A stretch of 26,228 nucleotides of DNA from a virus, in IMG/VR virus record IMGVR_UViG_3300048016_000141, positions 1-26,228 of that record; one strand, written 5' to 3'. The notes beneath the pieces were generated by a model. The model was not told the DNA's origin. It did no database searches and saw only the letters and a program-made list of their open reading frames with translations. Position numbers and translations under genes: made by a program. This document shows positions 1-6,997 of the stretch, one piece after another. Numbering within the stretch: position 1 is the first letter of the stretch; the number at the start of each line of letters is the position of its first letter.

Positions 1-15
1 CGAATGGTGGGTGAG

Positions 16-50
16 AATGGTGGCGTGTTAGTAGCACGCCACCATTTTTT
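16..50 (+). terminator. Intrinsic terminator of the upstream (off-window) operon
   Basis: A perfect 12-bp stem (16-27 with 35-46, AATGGTGGCGTG and its complement) closes a 7-nt loop and runs into a T tract at 45-50. It lacks a T tract in the other orientation, so it acts on plus-strand transcripts. It probably ends the operon to the left, where terminase and portal genes would be expected. The left arm begins with a second copy of GAATGGTGG, also present at 2-10. Confidence 0.85.
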
Positions 51-95
51 CTTGGTTGATGTAACAACGCAGTAAATTTGTTGTATAGTTTGCTT

Positions 96-643
96 TGCCG
101 ACCAGCAAGCAATTCAGTTGCTTGCCATGGTGCCGGATAGCGTAACCGGCAGGCTGGGGTTTCCCGGCTGATGCGCGTGAAAGCCGCGACAACCTTCCGG
201 GGGCGGGGCCCGGAGCCATCAAGCGTGATGACTGATCGAATAGCGTAGCCGGTGCGCGAGTAGTCCGGCGATCTTAGTCGTCACACTTGATGGTGCGAAG
301 TACAAGGACTATCACGCTCCAGCAAAGCGAAACGCTGGTTTGTACCGGGCTGGCCGGGAAAGTTGAACACACAGTGCGTCAAAGTAGGGCGCAGGCCAGC
401 AAAACGTACTTGACAGCCGGAGAGACGGCACCCTCACATAGCCTTATGGGTCGAACCCAGCAGCGCGAAGCCCGGAATGCGATGTCCGGTGAGGCTATGT
501 GATGGTCGAGAAAAGTCGGCTGGATCGCTGCTGCAGCAGCTCCGAAGGAAGGCATGAGTATCAACCATCAACCACCACGCAAGTGGCCGGCCTTTCCTCC
601 CTGGGCCGGAGCCTTTAACCCGGCCTCGCGCCGGGTTTTTTTT
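96..643 (+). ncRNA. Candidate large structured phage non-coding RNA
   Basis: No convincing gene lies between the terminators at 16-50 and 617-643, but the stretch is dense with inverted repeats. Clear stems are 105-112/118-125 (8 bp, perfect), 131-136/146-151, 216-233/276-293 (18 positions with one C-A mismatch and one G-U wobble), 234-238/269-273 and 249-252/265-268 nested inside it, 300-305/340-345 enclosing 319-323/334-338, 349-355/394-400 (7 bp), and 434-443/493-502 (10 bp, extended by ACC/GGT). The last encloses hairpins 447-451/455-459 and 472-476/485-489, giving a three-way junction. A 14-bp palindrome lies at 527-540. The two loops at 137-145 and 239-247 share ATAGCGTA. The start is a guess from a possible -10 box TATAGT at 84-89, and the end is the terminator. 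Size and setting recall the large ornate phage RNAs (GOLLD, ROOL), but I cannot assign a family. Confidence 0.5.
617..643 (+). terminator. Intrinsic terminator directly before the head operon
   Basis: An 8-bp stem (AACCCGGC at 617-624 with GCCGGGTT at 630-637) closes a CTCGC loop and is followed by eight T residues (636-643). It would end transcription of the structured non-coding stretch upstream. The GTCGTGAC promoter motif begins at the very next base, 644. Confidence 0.85.
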
Positions 644-665
644 GTCGTGACGCGACACTGCCCGA
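644..665 (+). promoter_or_regulatory. Late promoter, GTCGTGAC type (site A)
   Basis: GTCGTGAC at 644-651 is followed by a -10-like hexamer GACACT at 654-659, whose second A and last T match the invariant positions of the other sites. The motif begins exactly 22 nt before the ATG at 666, and no Shine-Dalgarno sequence precedes that ATG. The predicted transcript is leaderless. The site abuts the T tract of the terminator at 617-643. The promoter role is inferred from the repeated pattern across the window. Confidence 0.7.
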
Positions 666-2237: not shown

Positions 2238-5200
2238 ATGCGGCAAATCCCACGACTTCTCATCAAGGCCGACGCAATTCCGGCTGACGCCCACTGGATC
2301 ACAGTCCATCCAAACGGCCCCGGGTCGAAGGGTCAGGCCGTGCTCATCCAGCCGCACCCGGATGGCTCTGCTCGCGTCATTGGTGGCGCTGGCGGCAGCT
2401 TGAACTACCTCAAGCTGCGAGGCGTTAAATCGCACTCTGATTACAAGGCTGAAGCCGGGAAAAAGGCCGCCGATAAGCGTGTTGCACGCAAAGAACAAAC
2501 CGCCGCTGACAAAGCCGCCGGCATCCATGGTGCCAAGGAGCAGGTCCGCAAGGACATTGCAGAGCAGCGCAAGAAGGCCGAGCAGTCGGTTATCAGCGCC
2601 GTCGCCAAAAAGGCAGGCTGGGCTCCCGAGGACATGGAGTTCCCCGAGGCCGACTACGAGCATTTATCCGAATCAGCGCGCGACAAGGTGCGGTCAAAAT
2701 TCCACCGCGACCTGCTCAGCAAGGCCAAGGAGGTAATCCAGCAGAGCCGTCAAATGCTGGTGATAAGCCCCGCCGCGCGTGAAGAGGCCGGCGTTGGCGA
2801 GGTTCCGCTGTTCTCCGATTCGCCTGATGAGGTGTCTGCCGCCGACCTTGACCCTGTTCGTCCGGTTGGTGCTGGGCTGGGGTTCCAAGCCGACTACAAA
2901 GGTCGTGCCGAGGCTGCCGGGCTGTCGCAGGAGAATCTCGAAGCCGAAGCGGCCGAAGTGAAAACGGGCGGCATGACGCCCGAGCAGCGCCAGAAGGCAC
3001 TGGCAAAAGGCGACGCCGCCAAACTAATCAAACAGGAGCTGGCTGGCATCAAGGAGCCCGCTGCACCAAAGGCTGACGCCAGCCTGATTTCCGCCAAGGA
3101 CGCCCTCGATCTGGTGAAGGAGGGCAAGAAGCTCGCACTCATCGAAAAGGCCGCCCGAGAGGCCAACGCCGACGTGGACAAGTCACCCGTGGAGCCCAAG
3201 GCATTCGTGCTGGAGACTACGGACGACGTGGACGCTTCGGTGCAGGAAGACCTCAAGAACGACCTACGCACCGCTCAGACCCGCGCTTTTCTGTCCGAAG
3301 TTGGCAAAATCGCAGGGGCTCAGCCAAACGAGACCTTGGGTGGGCACATGGGCGTTGGGGCGTACAACAGCATCAACGCACTGGCTATGGCCGTGGGTGG
3401 TGACGCCCTCGTGGATCGCTCCGTGGTGGACGTGCTGGGTGTGGCTGGCGCCGCTCAGGTGCTGGCGCGCCGCCTGCACTCCGACCTCAATCCTGACGAG
3501 GTTCAGCACGTCGCCGAGGGCATCCAGGACTGGCACGTCAACCACTACATGGCCACCAGCACCAAGGCGCTGAAGCAAGCGCGGGAGCTGACCGACGCCG
3601 CGGCCGCCATCGACCTCTCGGACGAGGCCAAAACAGGCGCCGACCTAGCGGTGGCCCAAGAGCTGAATTCGCGCCGCCGCGCTGCCGTCGGGGATGCTCA
3701 GCGCATCTTGGGGCAGGCATTGGGCGAGATGGAGGCGAACGCCGCACTGGTGGTTGCCATGAAAGGCCCGGGTTCCGGCGACTTTCAGGTATCCCTTGGC
3801 AACACGTCGCCCGAGGCTGCGATCACGCAGGTTCGGGCGATTGGGCTCCAGCCCGGCGACTACGAGCTGGAGAAAGTCGGTGGCGACACATTCCTCACCG
3901 TCACGCCTGCTGGCATGGCGCGCCTTGCCAAGCCCGTTGCGCGCGAGGACATTGCCCAAGTGCGGCGCAATCTGGCAATCATGCGCGGCGACCACGACGA
4001 GGACGGCTGGCTACCCATGGGCGTCGCCAATCGGCCCGACATGGTCATGGACGTGAAGTCTGGCGTGGCCGAGCGCATGGCGCAGCCGTTCCAGCCTGGT
4101 GAAGACCTGCAGGCCAGCCTGAAGACCTATATTGGGGCGCGGGCCGCAGACGGCGACGCTCCAGCCGACATCCTGTCCGACGTTCAATCCGCCGACTTCT
4201 TCCAAAAGGTCGGGGCAGGGCGCACGGAGGAATACCGCGCTGCGCTGGACGCCGTGGCCCCACTCAAGGGCGCGGACGGCAAGCAGCAGCGCGCTGAGGC
4301 GCTGGCTGACACCTTCGATAAATACGCCGACAGCCACGTGGCCGCCTTGGGAGGCGAGCGCACCACGCTCAACCGGCAGAAATTCCAGATTGACCAGCAC
4401 TCTGTGGACGCGCTCCACCGTGCGCTGGCGGAAACCCCAGAGGGCACCGCCGCCTACAAGCAAATCGGCGAGCTGACCAACAAGGACCAATCTGCCCTGC
4501 GCGAGCATTTTTACCGCCACATCGCCCGTGAGGACGCCGCCGCTGGTGCCATGCGCAAGGAGCTGGAGGAACACATCGCCGGCGAGCCCGAGAAAGAGTC
4601 TACCGATATGTTCGGGGACACTGTGCCCAACCCTGATTGGCAGGACTGGAAAACGCACCGCGACGGCATGGCTGCCAAGCTCAACGCCAGCAGCCTCACG
4701 TGGTCCAAGTACCTCAAGACAATGGGCGGCAACGAGCGTGCCTACGAAGCCGTGCAGGACGTTATTCGCTCGAAGATGGCCAGCTCGTTTATCGACGCCC
4801 ACAACAAGCTCAACCCGGACGCGCCCATGAAGCTGGGCAAGCGCACCATCCGAAACAACCTCAACCACTTGGACGCCGTTGACCCAGCCGCCCGCGAGGC
4901 TCGGCTGGCAAAGGACAAAGAGCTGGTGGACCGGCTGCGCAACCGGGTGGGTGGCAAGTATTCCAGCGGCTCAGTTGCCGACAAGATTGACGCCGCCAAG
5001 CAGGAGCAGGCCGCGTTTGAGCAGGCGCAGATGGGGTTCTTTTCGTCCGAGGACGCACCGGAGTCCACTGGACCCGGTCAGGACGGCGCTCCCGTGCCGC
5101 TGGGGGCTGACGAGCGCCACACCTTGGGGCACGCCGCCGAGCGGCAGATTGCGGCCATGGTGGGCCACGTTGGCGAGAATTTCAAACCCGGCCAGCCCAC

Positions 5201-6788
5201 GAAGCTATGGGGCGTATCCATGTCGGGCAAGTACGCCGCCCAGCAGCGCGCGATCAAGCTGGTAGCAGCCAATAAGCGCGCCATGCTGGCCGCCGGTGCC
5301 GGGTCAGGCAAAACCAACATGATGCTCGGTTCCCACGCGCACCTGTCTGGCATGGGAAAGGTCAAGCGGTCGATCATGATGGTGCCATCCGTCGTGCAGG
5401 GCCAATTCTCCGGCGAGGCATTGCGCCTGCTGGAACCCGGCAAGTTCAAGACCCACATTCAGCCCGGGGCGAGCCAGTCCGAGCGCATCGCAGCCTACAA
5501 GGACGCCGGCACGCACATTTGCGTCATGACCCACCAATCCTTCCGCGACGACATGGTGCACCTCGGCGCCAAGCACGCCGGAATTGACGAAGGCGCCATG
5601 ACGGCGAAGCTGCAGAGTATGAGCACCGACCAGCGGCGCGATTGGGCGGCTGGCGTGATGGGGAAAGAGGGTATCAACTTCGACGCTTCGTTTGTGGACG
5701 AGTCCCACGACACACTAAACCGGGCGGGGAAGGAAAATTCCAGCCTGGCCAACGTCATCGAGGCGGTCGGCCACCACACACCGTACCACGTGCTCTCGTC
5801 AGGCGACCCGGTAAAGAACGACGCCAGCGAGATTCACTCGATGCTGCAAAAGATGGACCCCAGCCGCTACGGCGACCGGGCGGCCTTCATGCGCCGCTAT
5901 GGCGCTGACACCATCGCCAGCAAGGAGGCGCTGCAGCGGGAAATGGCCCGCTACGTGTTCCCGACCTCCATCACGCCCGACGTCGCCGTCAGCCGCAGCA
6001 CGGAGACCGTGCCGCTGTCCAAGGGGCAGCAACAGGCTCTTGGTGAGCTCGACAAGCACCTGGCCCGCGCTCGCCTGGCGCAGCGCGCTGGCAAGGTGGA
6101 CGTGGAGGCCGTGCGCCACATCTCGCCCGGTTCGTTTGATGGTGTTCCCGAGGCGGAGCACGAGGCCGTGGCCGCCAAGCTGCAGAAGGCCGTGGGCATG
6201 CTCAAGTCGTCGGCGGTGAACCGCGTTATCAACACCCACCCCGACAACGCCAAGGTGCAGCGCGCCGTGGAGATGGTGCAGGCGCGGCCGGGCAAGCAGG
6301 GCGTGATCTTCGCCCGCAACCGCGAGGCCGTCAGCCAGTACAAGGCAGCCATGGAGAAGGCCGGGCGCAAGGTAGTGGTCATCACAGGCAGCGACAGCGC
6401 CAAGGAAAAAGACGCCAAGCGCCGAATGTTCAACCCGGAGCAGGGTGAGGCGCAAGCCGACGTGTTGATTGCGTCCGATGCTGGTGCCGTGGGCATGAAC
6501 CTGCAATCGGGCCAGTTCCTGATCCAGCACGATATCAGCCAGACGGCCAAGACGCACAGCCAGCGGAATGCCCGCATTCACCGCCTGGGGCAGAAGAATG
6601 GCGTGGAGCTGATCGACCTGCAGGGTGACCACCCGGAGGAACGCCGCAGCCGCGAGCGACTGGACCGCAAGTACGGACTCAAGAATATGATGGCTTCGCC
6701 GCTGGATGGGCTTGACGATACTGGCGTGGCTGGTGCCATTGCGGCCCGGCGCGCGGCAGCGCAGTCCGACCAGCAGGGTTTGTTTTGA
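2238..6788 (+). CDS. Giant polyvalent protein with C-terminal SNF2/DEAD-like helicase
   Basis: This is the largest gene of the window (1516 residues). The C-terminal third is a superfamily 2 helicase of SNF2 type: Walker A GAGSGKT at residues 1020-1026, Walker B/motif II DESH at 1154-1157, a motif V region (VGMNLQS) near residue 1416, and motif VI QRNARIHRLGQ at 1442-1452, a pattern typical of SNF2 proteins. The first 60 residues contain an HPNG...KGQAVLI...GGAGGSLNYLKLRG segment, a pattern I associate with phage head-region proteins, followed by a Lys/Ala/Glu-rich helical stretch. Residues 120-1000 are not recognised. It lies in the head cluster under its own promoter. By analogy with P1 DarB, a helicase-containing antirestriction protein carried in the capsid, it may be packaged and injected with the DNA to protect or process it. 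That role is inference; the helicase domain is clear. SNF2 proteins use ATP to move along double-stranded DNA. Confidence 0.85.
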   Translation: MRQIPRLLIKADAIPADAHWITVHPNGPGSKGQAVLIQPHPDGSARVIGGAGGSLNYLKLRGVKSHSDYKAEAGKKAADKRVARKEQTAADKAAGIHGAKEQVRKDIAEQRKKAEQSVISAVAKKAGWAPEDMEFPEADYEHLSESARDKVRSKFHRDLLSKAKEVIQQSRQMLVISPAAREEAGVGEVPLFSDSPDEVSAADLDPVRPVGAGLGFQADYKGRAEAAGLSQENLEAEAAEVKTGGMTPEQRQKALAKGDAAKLIKQELAGIKEPAAPKADASLISAKDALDLVKEGKKLALIEKAAREANADVDKSPVEPKAFVLETTDDVDASVQEDLKNDLRTAQTRAFLSEVGKIAGAQPNETLGGHMGVGAYNSINALAMAVGGDALVDRSVVDVLGVAGAAQVLARRLHSDLNPDEVQHVAEGIQDWHVNHYMATSTKALKQARELTDAAAAIDLSDEAKTGADLAVAQELNSRRRAAVGDAQRILGQALGEMEANAALVVAMKGPGSGDFQVSLGNTSPEAAITQVRAIGLQPGDYELEKVGGDTFLTVTPAGMARLAKPVAREDIAQVRRNLAIMRGDHDEDGWLPMGVANRPDMVMDVKSGVAERMAQPFQPGEDLQASLKTYIGARAADGDAPADILSDVQSADFFQKVGAGRTEEYRAALDAVAPLKGADGKQQRAEALADTFDKYADSHVAALGGERTTLNRQKFQIDQHSVDALHRALAETPEGTAAYKQIGELTNKDQSALREHFYRHIAREDAAAGAMRKELEEHIAGEPEKESTDMFGDTVPNPDWQDWKTHRDGMAAKLNASSLTWSKYLKTMGGNERAYEAVQDVIRSKMASSFIDAHNKLNPDAPMKLGKRTIRNNLNHLDAVDPAAREARLAKDKELVDRLRNRVGGKYSSGSVADKIDAAKQEQAAFEQAQMGFFSSEDAPESTGPGQDGAPVPLGADERHTLGHAAERQIAAMVGHVGENFKPGQPTKLWGVSMSGKYAAQQRAIKLVAANKRAMLAAGAGSGKTNMMLGSHAHLSGMGKVKRSIMMVPSVVQGQFSGEALRLLEPGKFKTHIQPGASQSERIAAYKDAGTHICVMTHQSFRDDMVHLGAKHAGIDEGAMTAKLQSMSTDQRRDWAAGVMGKEGINFDASFVDESHDTLNRAGKENSSLANVIEAVGHHTPYHVLSSGDPVKNDASEIHSMLQKMDPSRYGDRAAFMRRYGADTIASKEALQREMARYVFPTSITPDVAVSRSTETVPLSKGQQQALGELDKHLARARLAQRAGKVDVEAVRHISPGSFDGVPEAEHEAVAAKLQKAVGMLKSSAVNRVINTHPDNAKVQRAVEMVQARPGKQGVIFARNREAVSQYKAAMEKAGRKVVVITGSDSAKEKDAKRRMFNPEQGEAQADVLIASDAGAVGMNLQSGQFLIQHDISQTAKTHSQRNARIHRLGQKNGVELIDLQGDHPEERRSRERLDRKYGLKNMMASPLDGLDDTGVAGAIAARRAAAQSDQQGLF

Positions 6789-6802
6789 GGTAACCTCACG
6801 CC

Positions 6803-6997
6803 ATGAGAACTCTTGCCGCACTAATCCTTGCATTCGCCGCAACCGGCGCAGTCGCCAATACCAGCGCCTGCTACAACATCCAGGACGCCGACGCCCGCAC
6901 TATGTGTCTGGCGCGAGCCCACCGGGAGCCTAGCCAGTGCTACTCGATCCAGCGGGCCGACCTTCGGTCGCAGTGTCTCGCTGAGGTGCGCAAATGA
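6803..6997 (+). CDS. Small exported protein with duplicated Cys motif
   Basis: The 64-residue protein has a signal peptide (MR, then a hydrophobic run to about residue 18, cleavage probably after AVA). The mature part is two copies of one motif, C-Y-x-I-Q-x-A-D-x-R-x-x-C-L-A, at residues 23-37 and 46-60, each with two Cys 12 residues apart (23/35 and 46/58). Disulfide-linked helical hairpins in the periplasm are a reasonable guess. GAGG at 6787-6790 is a distant ribosome site (12-nt spacing) and overlaps the stop of the helicase gene. The stop overlaps the next start (ATGA). Its function is unknown; an effect on the host envelope is possible. Confidence 0.65.
   Translation: MRTLAALILAFAATGAVANTSACYNIQDADARTMCLARAHREPSQCYSIQRADLRSQCLAEVRK

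Follow-up and report, generated by a model that had tools for sequence, protein, structure and literature searches.

What does the gene-free stretch at positions 96 to 643, which has a portal/terminase-side module on one side and the gene of a minor head protein on the other, produce in this phage? Large phage RNAs without a known job, such as GOLLD and ROOL, are a recognised puzzle, and laboratory-friendly examples are few. The window (the whole stretch of DNA analysed, 26,228 nt) is a fragment of a roughly 93-kb myovirus genome, and its sequence agrees fully with that of a 93,362-bp IMG/VR contig (L002) across the part that we compared. A preliminary description had proposed a large structured non-coding RNA between two terminators. 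On the RNA itself we reached the same conclusion: promoter, terminator, covariation and module conservation agree, and the stretch very probably makes a folded RNA of about 545 nt. Its features and those flanking it are the following.

13–53, plus strand: intrinsic terminator of the upstream RNA1 (17 pairs, T tail)
61–89, plus strand: sigma-70-like promoter GTAACA-17-TATAGT (signal scan; 0.3 expected by chance)
97–643, plus strand: predicted structured non-coding RNA, about 545 nt (fold z −3.4 to −3.6; ends placed from promoter and terminator)
101–131, plus strand: 5′ hairpin (in the minimum-energy fold and the centroid; conserved in L003 and L004)
148–224, plus strand: module X, three hairpins at about 152–169, 173–190 and 196–214 (homologues in L003, L004, L006 and L068)
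216–293, plus strand: arm A, 216–233 pairing with 276–293 (compensated in L191)
294–433, plus strand: spacer module V, including a hairpin at 416–429 (homologues in L227 and L169)
430–506, plus strand: arm B, 434–443 pairing with 493–502 (minimum-energy fold and centroid)
499–506, plus strand: shared middle strand GUGAUGGU (two possible partners, 430–437 or 564–571)
564–571, plus strand: 3′ strand ACCAUCAA, counterpart of the module Z closing strand in relatives
584–645, plus strand: anti-hemB-like (cuckoo-RNA-like) tail, hairpin then terminator (RF02837 match)
617–643, plus strand: intrinsic terminator of the structured RNA
644–650, plus strand: GTCGTGA motif, exactly 22 nt ahead of the head gene start codon
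666–1823, plus strand: minor head/particle protein gene (served to gather syntenic relatives)

The signal scan returned two intrinsic terminators, at 13–49 and 617–637, as compared with 0.7 expected, and the promoter core TTGTTGTATAGTT was also present in L003 and L004. With the promoter at 61–89 and these terminators, a transcript of about 97–643 is therefore expected, and its start site probably lies at about 96–98. The proposed position between two terminators held in that both signals were found, but the first one ends a separate RNA, RNA1, which lies almost wholly upstream of the window. Because the promoter is of the host type, unlike the GTCGTGA promoter-like motif of the neighbouring genes, the RNA may be made early by the host polymerase. 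In five genes of the window GTCGTGA preceded the start codon by exactly 22 nt (motif and start codon at 644/666, 2216/2238, 7277/7299, 13483/13505 and 22529/22551), and it had this spacing from the head gene in many relatives as well. This motif is likely a phage promoter yielding leaderless or nearly leaderless mRNAs, and its copy at 644–650 the likely promoter of the next transcript. We also observed an AraC-type regulator gene (HTH_18, E 7.9e-24) amid the phage genes, on the minus strand at 1804–2199.

As the preliminary description had held, the region has no plausible gene: none of the ORFs overlapping 96–643 (61–92 aa) was plausible, and the sense ORF at 287–502 gave no PHROG match. ARAGORN and Rfam detected neither a tmRNA nor a tRNA in the window. 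The fold was more stable than that of all 100 dinucleotide shuffles (z −3.6 for 85–645 and −3.4 for 99–643). The long helix described earlier at 216–233/276–293 was recovered inside the top helix of 54–643 (215–235/274–294), which beat 199 of 200 dinucleotide shuffles, the remaining one reaching its score; that score was 17, as compared with 9–16 in 21 tiles from the coding part. The 10-bp stem at 434–443/493–502 and the hairpin at 105–125, the latter extending to about 101–131, were likewise borne out by both the minimum-energy fold and the centroid. The minus strand folded equally well (z −4.2), so folding energy alone cannot set the strand, and we assigned the RNA to the plus strand because of the promoter, the terminator, the tRNAs that relatives encode on the sense strand, and a surplus of G-U over A-C pairs. 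This surplus amounted to 16 G-U as compared with three A-C in 11 arms, but one recurring pair, the first closing pair, supplied seven of the 16; the earlier argument from G-U pairing has modest support only.

Homologues were found to keep the stems by compensatory change, the check that the preliminary description had suggested. For module X, the alignment of the window with L003, L004, L006 and L068 contained five double-change pairs (0 of 500 shuffles; slid controls failed), a test that comprises five sequences only and in which the shuffles ignore phylogeny. In the middle hairpin (173–190) three of the five pairs carried double changes, and a model of module X (R1) retrieved no loci beyond the five already known. 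The hairpin at 152–169 (GGYUGGGGUUUCCCGGC) was also seen letter for letter in tmRNA-like genes of L022, L024, L030 and others. The hairpin pattern GGYTGGGGTTTCCCGGC was not taken as proof of kinship, many of its viral-contig matches being tmRNA genes by eye; strong hairpins of the GGYTGGGGTTTCCCGGC type shared with tmRNA genes are probably convergent.

The arms behaved similarly. Across 11 arms from eight phages, the upper stem paired at 7.6 of eight positions within an RNA as compared with 3.6 of eight when crossed (0 of 20,000 permutations), although the arms were partly selected for pairing and the test is to that extent not fully independent. Arm A is closed by CCAUCA/UGAUGG, and its 44-nt loop holds an inner hairpin. 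Its comparison with the unrelated contig L191 (E 1.6e-10) was the cleanest single covariation test, made on two sequences only: the loop was nearly identical and four pairs had changed on both sides, A-U to C-G twice and U-G to G-C in the stem, and G-C to U-A in the inner hairpin. Arm A was also homologous to a unit in L206, in which the array contains the domain that we termed Z.

These modules belong to a wider set. In the basic module, a 16–18-bp arm closed by CCAUCA/UGAUGG comes after a small hairpin, and the order within a unit is hairpin, arm, domain Z. The arm motif ACCATCACATCAGCGG, with its partner 67–198 nt distant, occurred in ten further contigs, and 34 stretches contained the 3′ motif GAGATCAGNNCNNGCCACCATCAA. 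Domain Z has a closing stem, UGAUGGUG/CACCAUCA, around a hairpin GCGCA-GGCUGA-UGCGC, a variable stretch and a hairpin GCCGG-AGAUCAGCA-CCGGC. The closing stem covaries (GAUGGUG/CACCAUC, UGUGGUG/CACCACA and GAGGGUG/CACCCUC), and the two hairpin loops are complementary (GCUGA/UCAGC); since these kissing-loop pairs hardly vary, we infer the loop–loop pairing from complementarity. In the alignment of 26 Z sequences, 95.7% of cells were paired and nine of 24 pairs showed double changes. None of 500 shuffles, which ignore phylogeny, reached any of five measures, and slid versions were only 25–53% paired. No Rfam family matched Z.

An upstream arm with at least 14 of 16 pairs was located directly ahead of 26 of the 31 Z loci, as compared with seven of 310 at 14 pairs, and none higher, in the null. 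At 24 of the 31 loci, one middle strand was able to pair either with the arm's 5′ strand or with the 3′ closing strand; these two pairings are mutually exclusive. The arm of L238 encloses a tRNA fold (Rfam, 40.9 bits), and ARAGORN at a lowered threshold called no tRNA in arms. In L227, spacer V is followed by an arm and then by a 94-bit Z. Upstream of Z in L259, L261 and L262 we noticed by eye tmRNA-like tag frames (ANEEMYLAVA-stop, ANEDRFLMAA-stop and ANDNTFLAVA-stop, respectively); these regions gave weak tmRNA model matches only (L261), and ARAGORN called none.

The window RNA carries the hairpin and the 16–18-bp CCAUCA/UGAUGG arm kept by compensatory change, as well as arm and spacer modules homologous to those of unrelated members: L191 and L206 for the arm, L227 and L169 for the spacer, where 341–439 corresponds to L227:2995–3093 (E 1.8e-12) and a part to L169:2611–2682. 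Its 3′ closing strand, (C)ACCAUCAA, can pair with the 3′ strand of the arm. Arm B is lengthened by ACC (430–432)/GGU (504–506), and the middle strand at 499–506 can form seven of eight pairs with 564–571, its other option being the arm B 5′ strand at 430–437. The Z model, R3, detected no significant Z in 96–643 and only a chance-level match (6717–6863) in the whole window, and on nine genomes or records reached via other loci it gave weak matches or none outside one virus record. As Z is undetectable in the window, membership rests on the arms, the hairpins, spacer V and the syntenic copy in L004, and we therefore place the window RNA in the modular class as one whose 3′ domain has diverged, and do not call it a Z RNA. 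Its mosaic of modules common to many other phages and its anti-hemB-like 3′ end are points beyond the preliminary description.

That 3′ end matched anti-hemB (RF02837) at 584–645 with 42.6 bits and E 1.5e-8, under the curated cut-off of 49.5; among relatives, L005 passed it (50.6 bits), and L003, L069 and L004 reached 45.5, 40.5 and 40.0 bits, respectively. A hairpin at about 585–609 exposes the anti-Shine–Dalgarno sequence CCUCCC (596–601) in its loop. The hairpin (about 584–609) and the terminator form a separable anti-Shine–Dalgarno, anti-hemB-like module.

Searches with the head protein gathered 16 and later 80 loci, in addition to named phages including Dolphis, PHB04, ST4 and fHe-Yen8-01. 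Between RNA1 and the head gene these phages had nothing, tRNAs (L006, L009, L057, L059 and L091), a permuted tmRNA (L066) or an RNA like that at 96–643. The L066 gene, at 4177–4427, is a phage-encoded permuted tmRNA (RF04321, 92.6 bits) adjoining a tRNA-Met. Among the nearest relatives, L003 had the flanks without arms, L004 one arm and another domain, and the window two arms; the contents of the slot behave as cassettes. In L004, where the slot is the same and the head protein 96% identical, a Z domain scored 77.9 bits.

RNA1 itself, about 145 nt long with its body at L002:4201–4347, just outside the window, is conserved upstream of the head gene and was found in about 35 phage loci. Compensatory changes occurred at all 27 of its predicted pairs, and its model matched 27 of the 80 sources plus one weak off-site location. 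RNA1 had no Rfam match and probably represents a separate, new RNA family. By eye, a third conserved element, 'RNA3' (GCGGTTCATTCGGGATATAAAGGCCGCAG...GATACCGCGCGATAGGCGGC), was seen between two GTCGTGA motifs in the last 240 nt before the head gene in L066, L068, L069, L076, L079, L095, L101 and L105, and the motif CACGANCGGTGAAAGCCCGCGCCGGAGACGTACCCGG recurred in nhmmer searches in L005, L057, L066, L068, L086, L096, L098, L099, L101 and L102. A Proteo-phage-1 RNA (RF03044, 57.6 bits) was located at L015:7914–7996, downstream of that relative's head gene.

To describe how far the class extends, two units were used as blastn queries and returned 235 and 216 records, from phages of Klebsiella, Pseudomonas, E. 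coli, Burkholderia and others, some of them chance matches under the lenient E-limit. R3 confirmed Z in mEp460, P1 (three copies), an E. coli prophage and a plasmid, a Klebsiella phage, UPM 2146 and ZC03. The element adjoins tRNA genes in KP591P1, SCNJ1-C, ZC03, ST4 and P1, with tRNA neighbours thus seen in P1 and in Klebsiella, Pseudomonas and Aeromonas phages; in P1, three tandem Z domains adjoin tRNA genes and lie downstream of tRNA-Asn/tRNA-Thr. Z is the most conserved piece of this RNA family, and an mEp460 query containing it matched 1,820 of the 5,426 E. coli genomes that are complete, about a third, where it lies in prophages. In 460 of them the match covered at least 80% of the query length, and none of the ten matches listed carries an annotated feature. 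Run directly against phage and plasmid DNA, the window RNA gave no phage match and only terminator-like plasmid matches. The RNA was not described in the mainly non-subscription literature on phage tmRNA, P1 RNA, the yfdP-region sRNA and large phage RNAs.

Transcription signals, covarying stems, the sharing of modules with unrelated phages and a frequent association with tRNAs were all observed computationally. We favour a scaffold-type reading, with a processed small-RNA precursor as its main rival, and lean towards an independent, non-messenger RNA of about 545 nt that belongs to an uncatalogued modular class and acts as a scaffold during infection. Each RNA would be built from exchangeable units (a hairpin, a CCAUCA/UGAUGG arm or its covarying equivalents, a variable cargo loop and spacers), with the Z kissing-loop domain as the most widespread spacer domain. 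Once folded into a scaffold during infection, the RNA might have a role comparable to that of GOLLD and ROOL without being of the same family. Its arms may serve as swappable docking or cargo elements, as with the tRNA fold held by the L238 arm. The middle strand UGAUGGU has two possible partners, one within the arm and the other the 3′ CACCAUCAA strand, and could provide a folding switch or an intermolecular joint, such that the alternative pairing would join molecules or time folding. The anti-Shine–Dalgarno tail could sequester ribosome-binding sites, or be merely a borrowed terminator. Only tentatively would we extend this to a modular scaffold superfamily in which arms, with or without tRNA folds, are swapped as cassettes and the middle strand toggles partners to switch or join molecules; it is similarly doubtful that such a superfamily has escaped cataloguing while occurring in phages of many Pseudomonadota and in roughly one complete E. 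coli genome in three.

The arms could instead be RNase III-type processing stems that free small RNAs or tRNA-like pieces, with the 3′ end released as an anti-Shine–Dalgarno sRNA of the cuckoo/anti-hemB kind that acts on ribosome-binding sites. Long, nearly perfect arms around variable loops of 40–150 nt, the tRNA fold within one of them, the tRNA genes that several relatives have in the same gap and the anti-hemB match at the 3′ end of the window, L003, L004, L005 and L069 are in agreement with such a precursor. However, most other class members have no anti-hemB-like tail, the CCAUCA/UGAUGG bases and the kissing-loop domain are conserved far beyond the needs of a processing stem, and the cargo loops, except that of arm A, are not conserved as small RNAs; we regard the precursor, its 3′ product included, as plausible but less likely than the scaffold. 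The variability of the arms, which are swapped among unrelated phages, might also reflect an arms race, the arms and tRNA-like inserts mimicking host tRNAs, CRISPR RNAs or toxin-bound RNAs as decoys or counter-defence; tRNA or tmRNA genes located in the same gap or next to the element would fit this. A constant Z domain and constant arm bases suggest, in contrast, a common partner or architecture and not many targets, no candidate defence target was identified, and we judge a decoy, together with its arms race, improbable.

That the sequence works as DNA, its inverted repeats serving recombination, cassette insertion or protein binding, would account for the length of these repeats, for the cassette-like swaps among L003, L004 and the window and for a minus strand that folds just as well. 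The region nevertheless has its own promoter and terminator, sense-strand tRNAs and a tmRNA occupy the same gaps, G-U exceeds A-C on the plus strand, and the single-stranded loop–loop complementarity of Z is conserved, which makes a DNA-level element very improbable. Were the RNA a divergent form of GOLLD, ROOL or some other Rfam family, its size, its origin in a phage, the nearby tRNAs and its modular layout of constant and variable parts would fit; with covariance models that match only 3′-end sRNA families, and relatives and Z loci without GOLLD or ROOL, we give this explanation hardly any weight. Should the RNA class prove genuine, something widespread in phage biology has so far escaped annotation; as Z occurs in P1 and in mEp460 and other classic E. 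coli phages, the function of the class can be tested by deletion in P1.

Compared with known systems, Rfam searches of the window at the curated cut-off, and of 1–700 at E up to 5, returned only sRNA families at the 3′ end. The likeness to GOLLD and ROOL put forward earlier therefore holds for size, phage setting and tRNA neighbourhood, but GOLLD and ROOL themselves were absent from these searches, and relatives and Z-bearing loci were likewise without matches to them. Over the window and its relatives together, Rfam returned only tRNA, permuted tmRNA, anti-hemB-like tails and matches unrelated to the RNA. Group I and II introns, HEARO-type RNAs and retrons were weighed by eye and dropped without any supporting match. 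Anti-hemB (RF02837), SorX (RF02784) and mmgR (RF00519, Rfam name suhB) resemble the 3′ 60 nt of the window RNA in having a CCUCCC-loop hairpin followed by a GC-rich terminator; they are short bacterial sRNAs, whereas in the window the tail alone matches and forms the end of an RNA of 545 nt. In relatives the gap is also the site of permuted tmRNA (RF04321) and of phage tRNA clusters, but ARAGORN and Rfam revealed neither kind of gene in the window. GOLLD and ROOL adjoin tRNA islands, and the GOLLD linker can contain tRNAs (Nature 2025, PMC12286853). Like the window RNA and its class, GOLLD is a large phage or prophage RNA with a conserved and a variable part, the latter sometimes containing tRNAs; unlike GOLLD, which has many members above 800 nt, the window RNA is of about 545 nt and gave no covariance-model match, and the motifs of its class are CCAUCA/UGAUGG arms and GCUGA/UCAGC kissing loops. 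A further property of GOLLD is an oligomeric nanocage (14-mer). ROOL resembles the class in being a large phage RNA that contains kissing loops and is encoded close to tRNA islands; it also gave no covariance-model match and has one fixed architecture, in contrast to the exchangeable arm units of the class.
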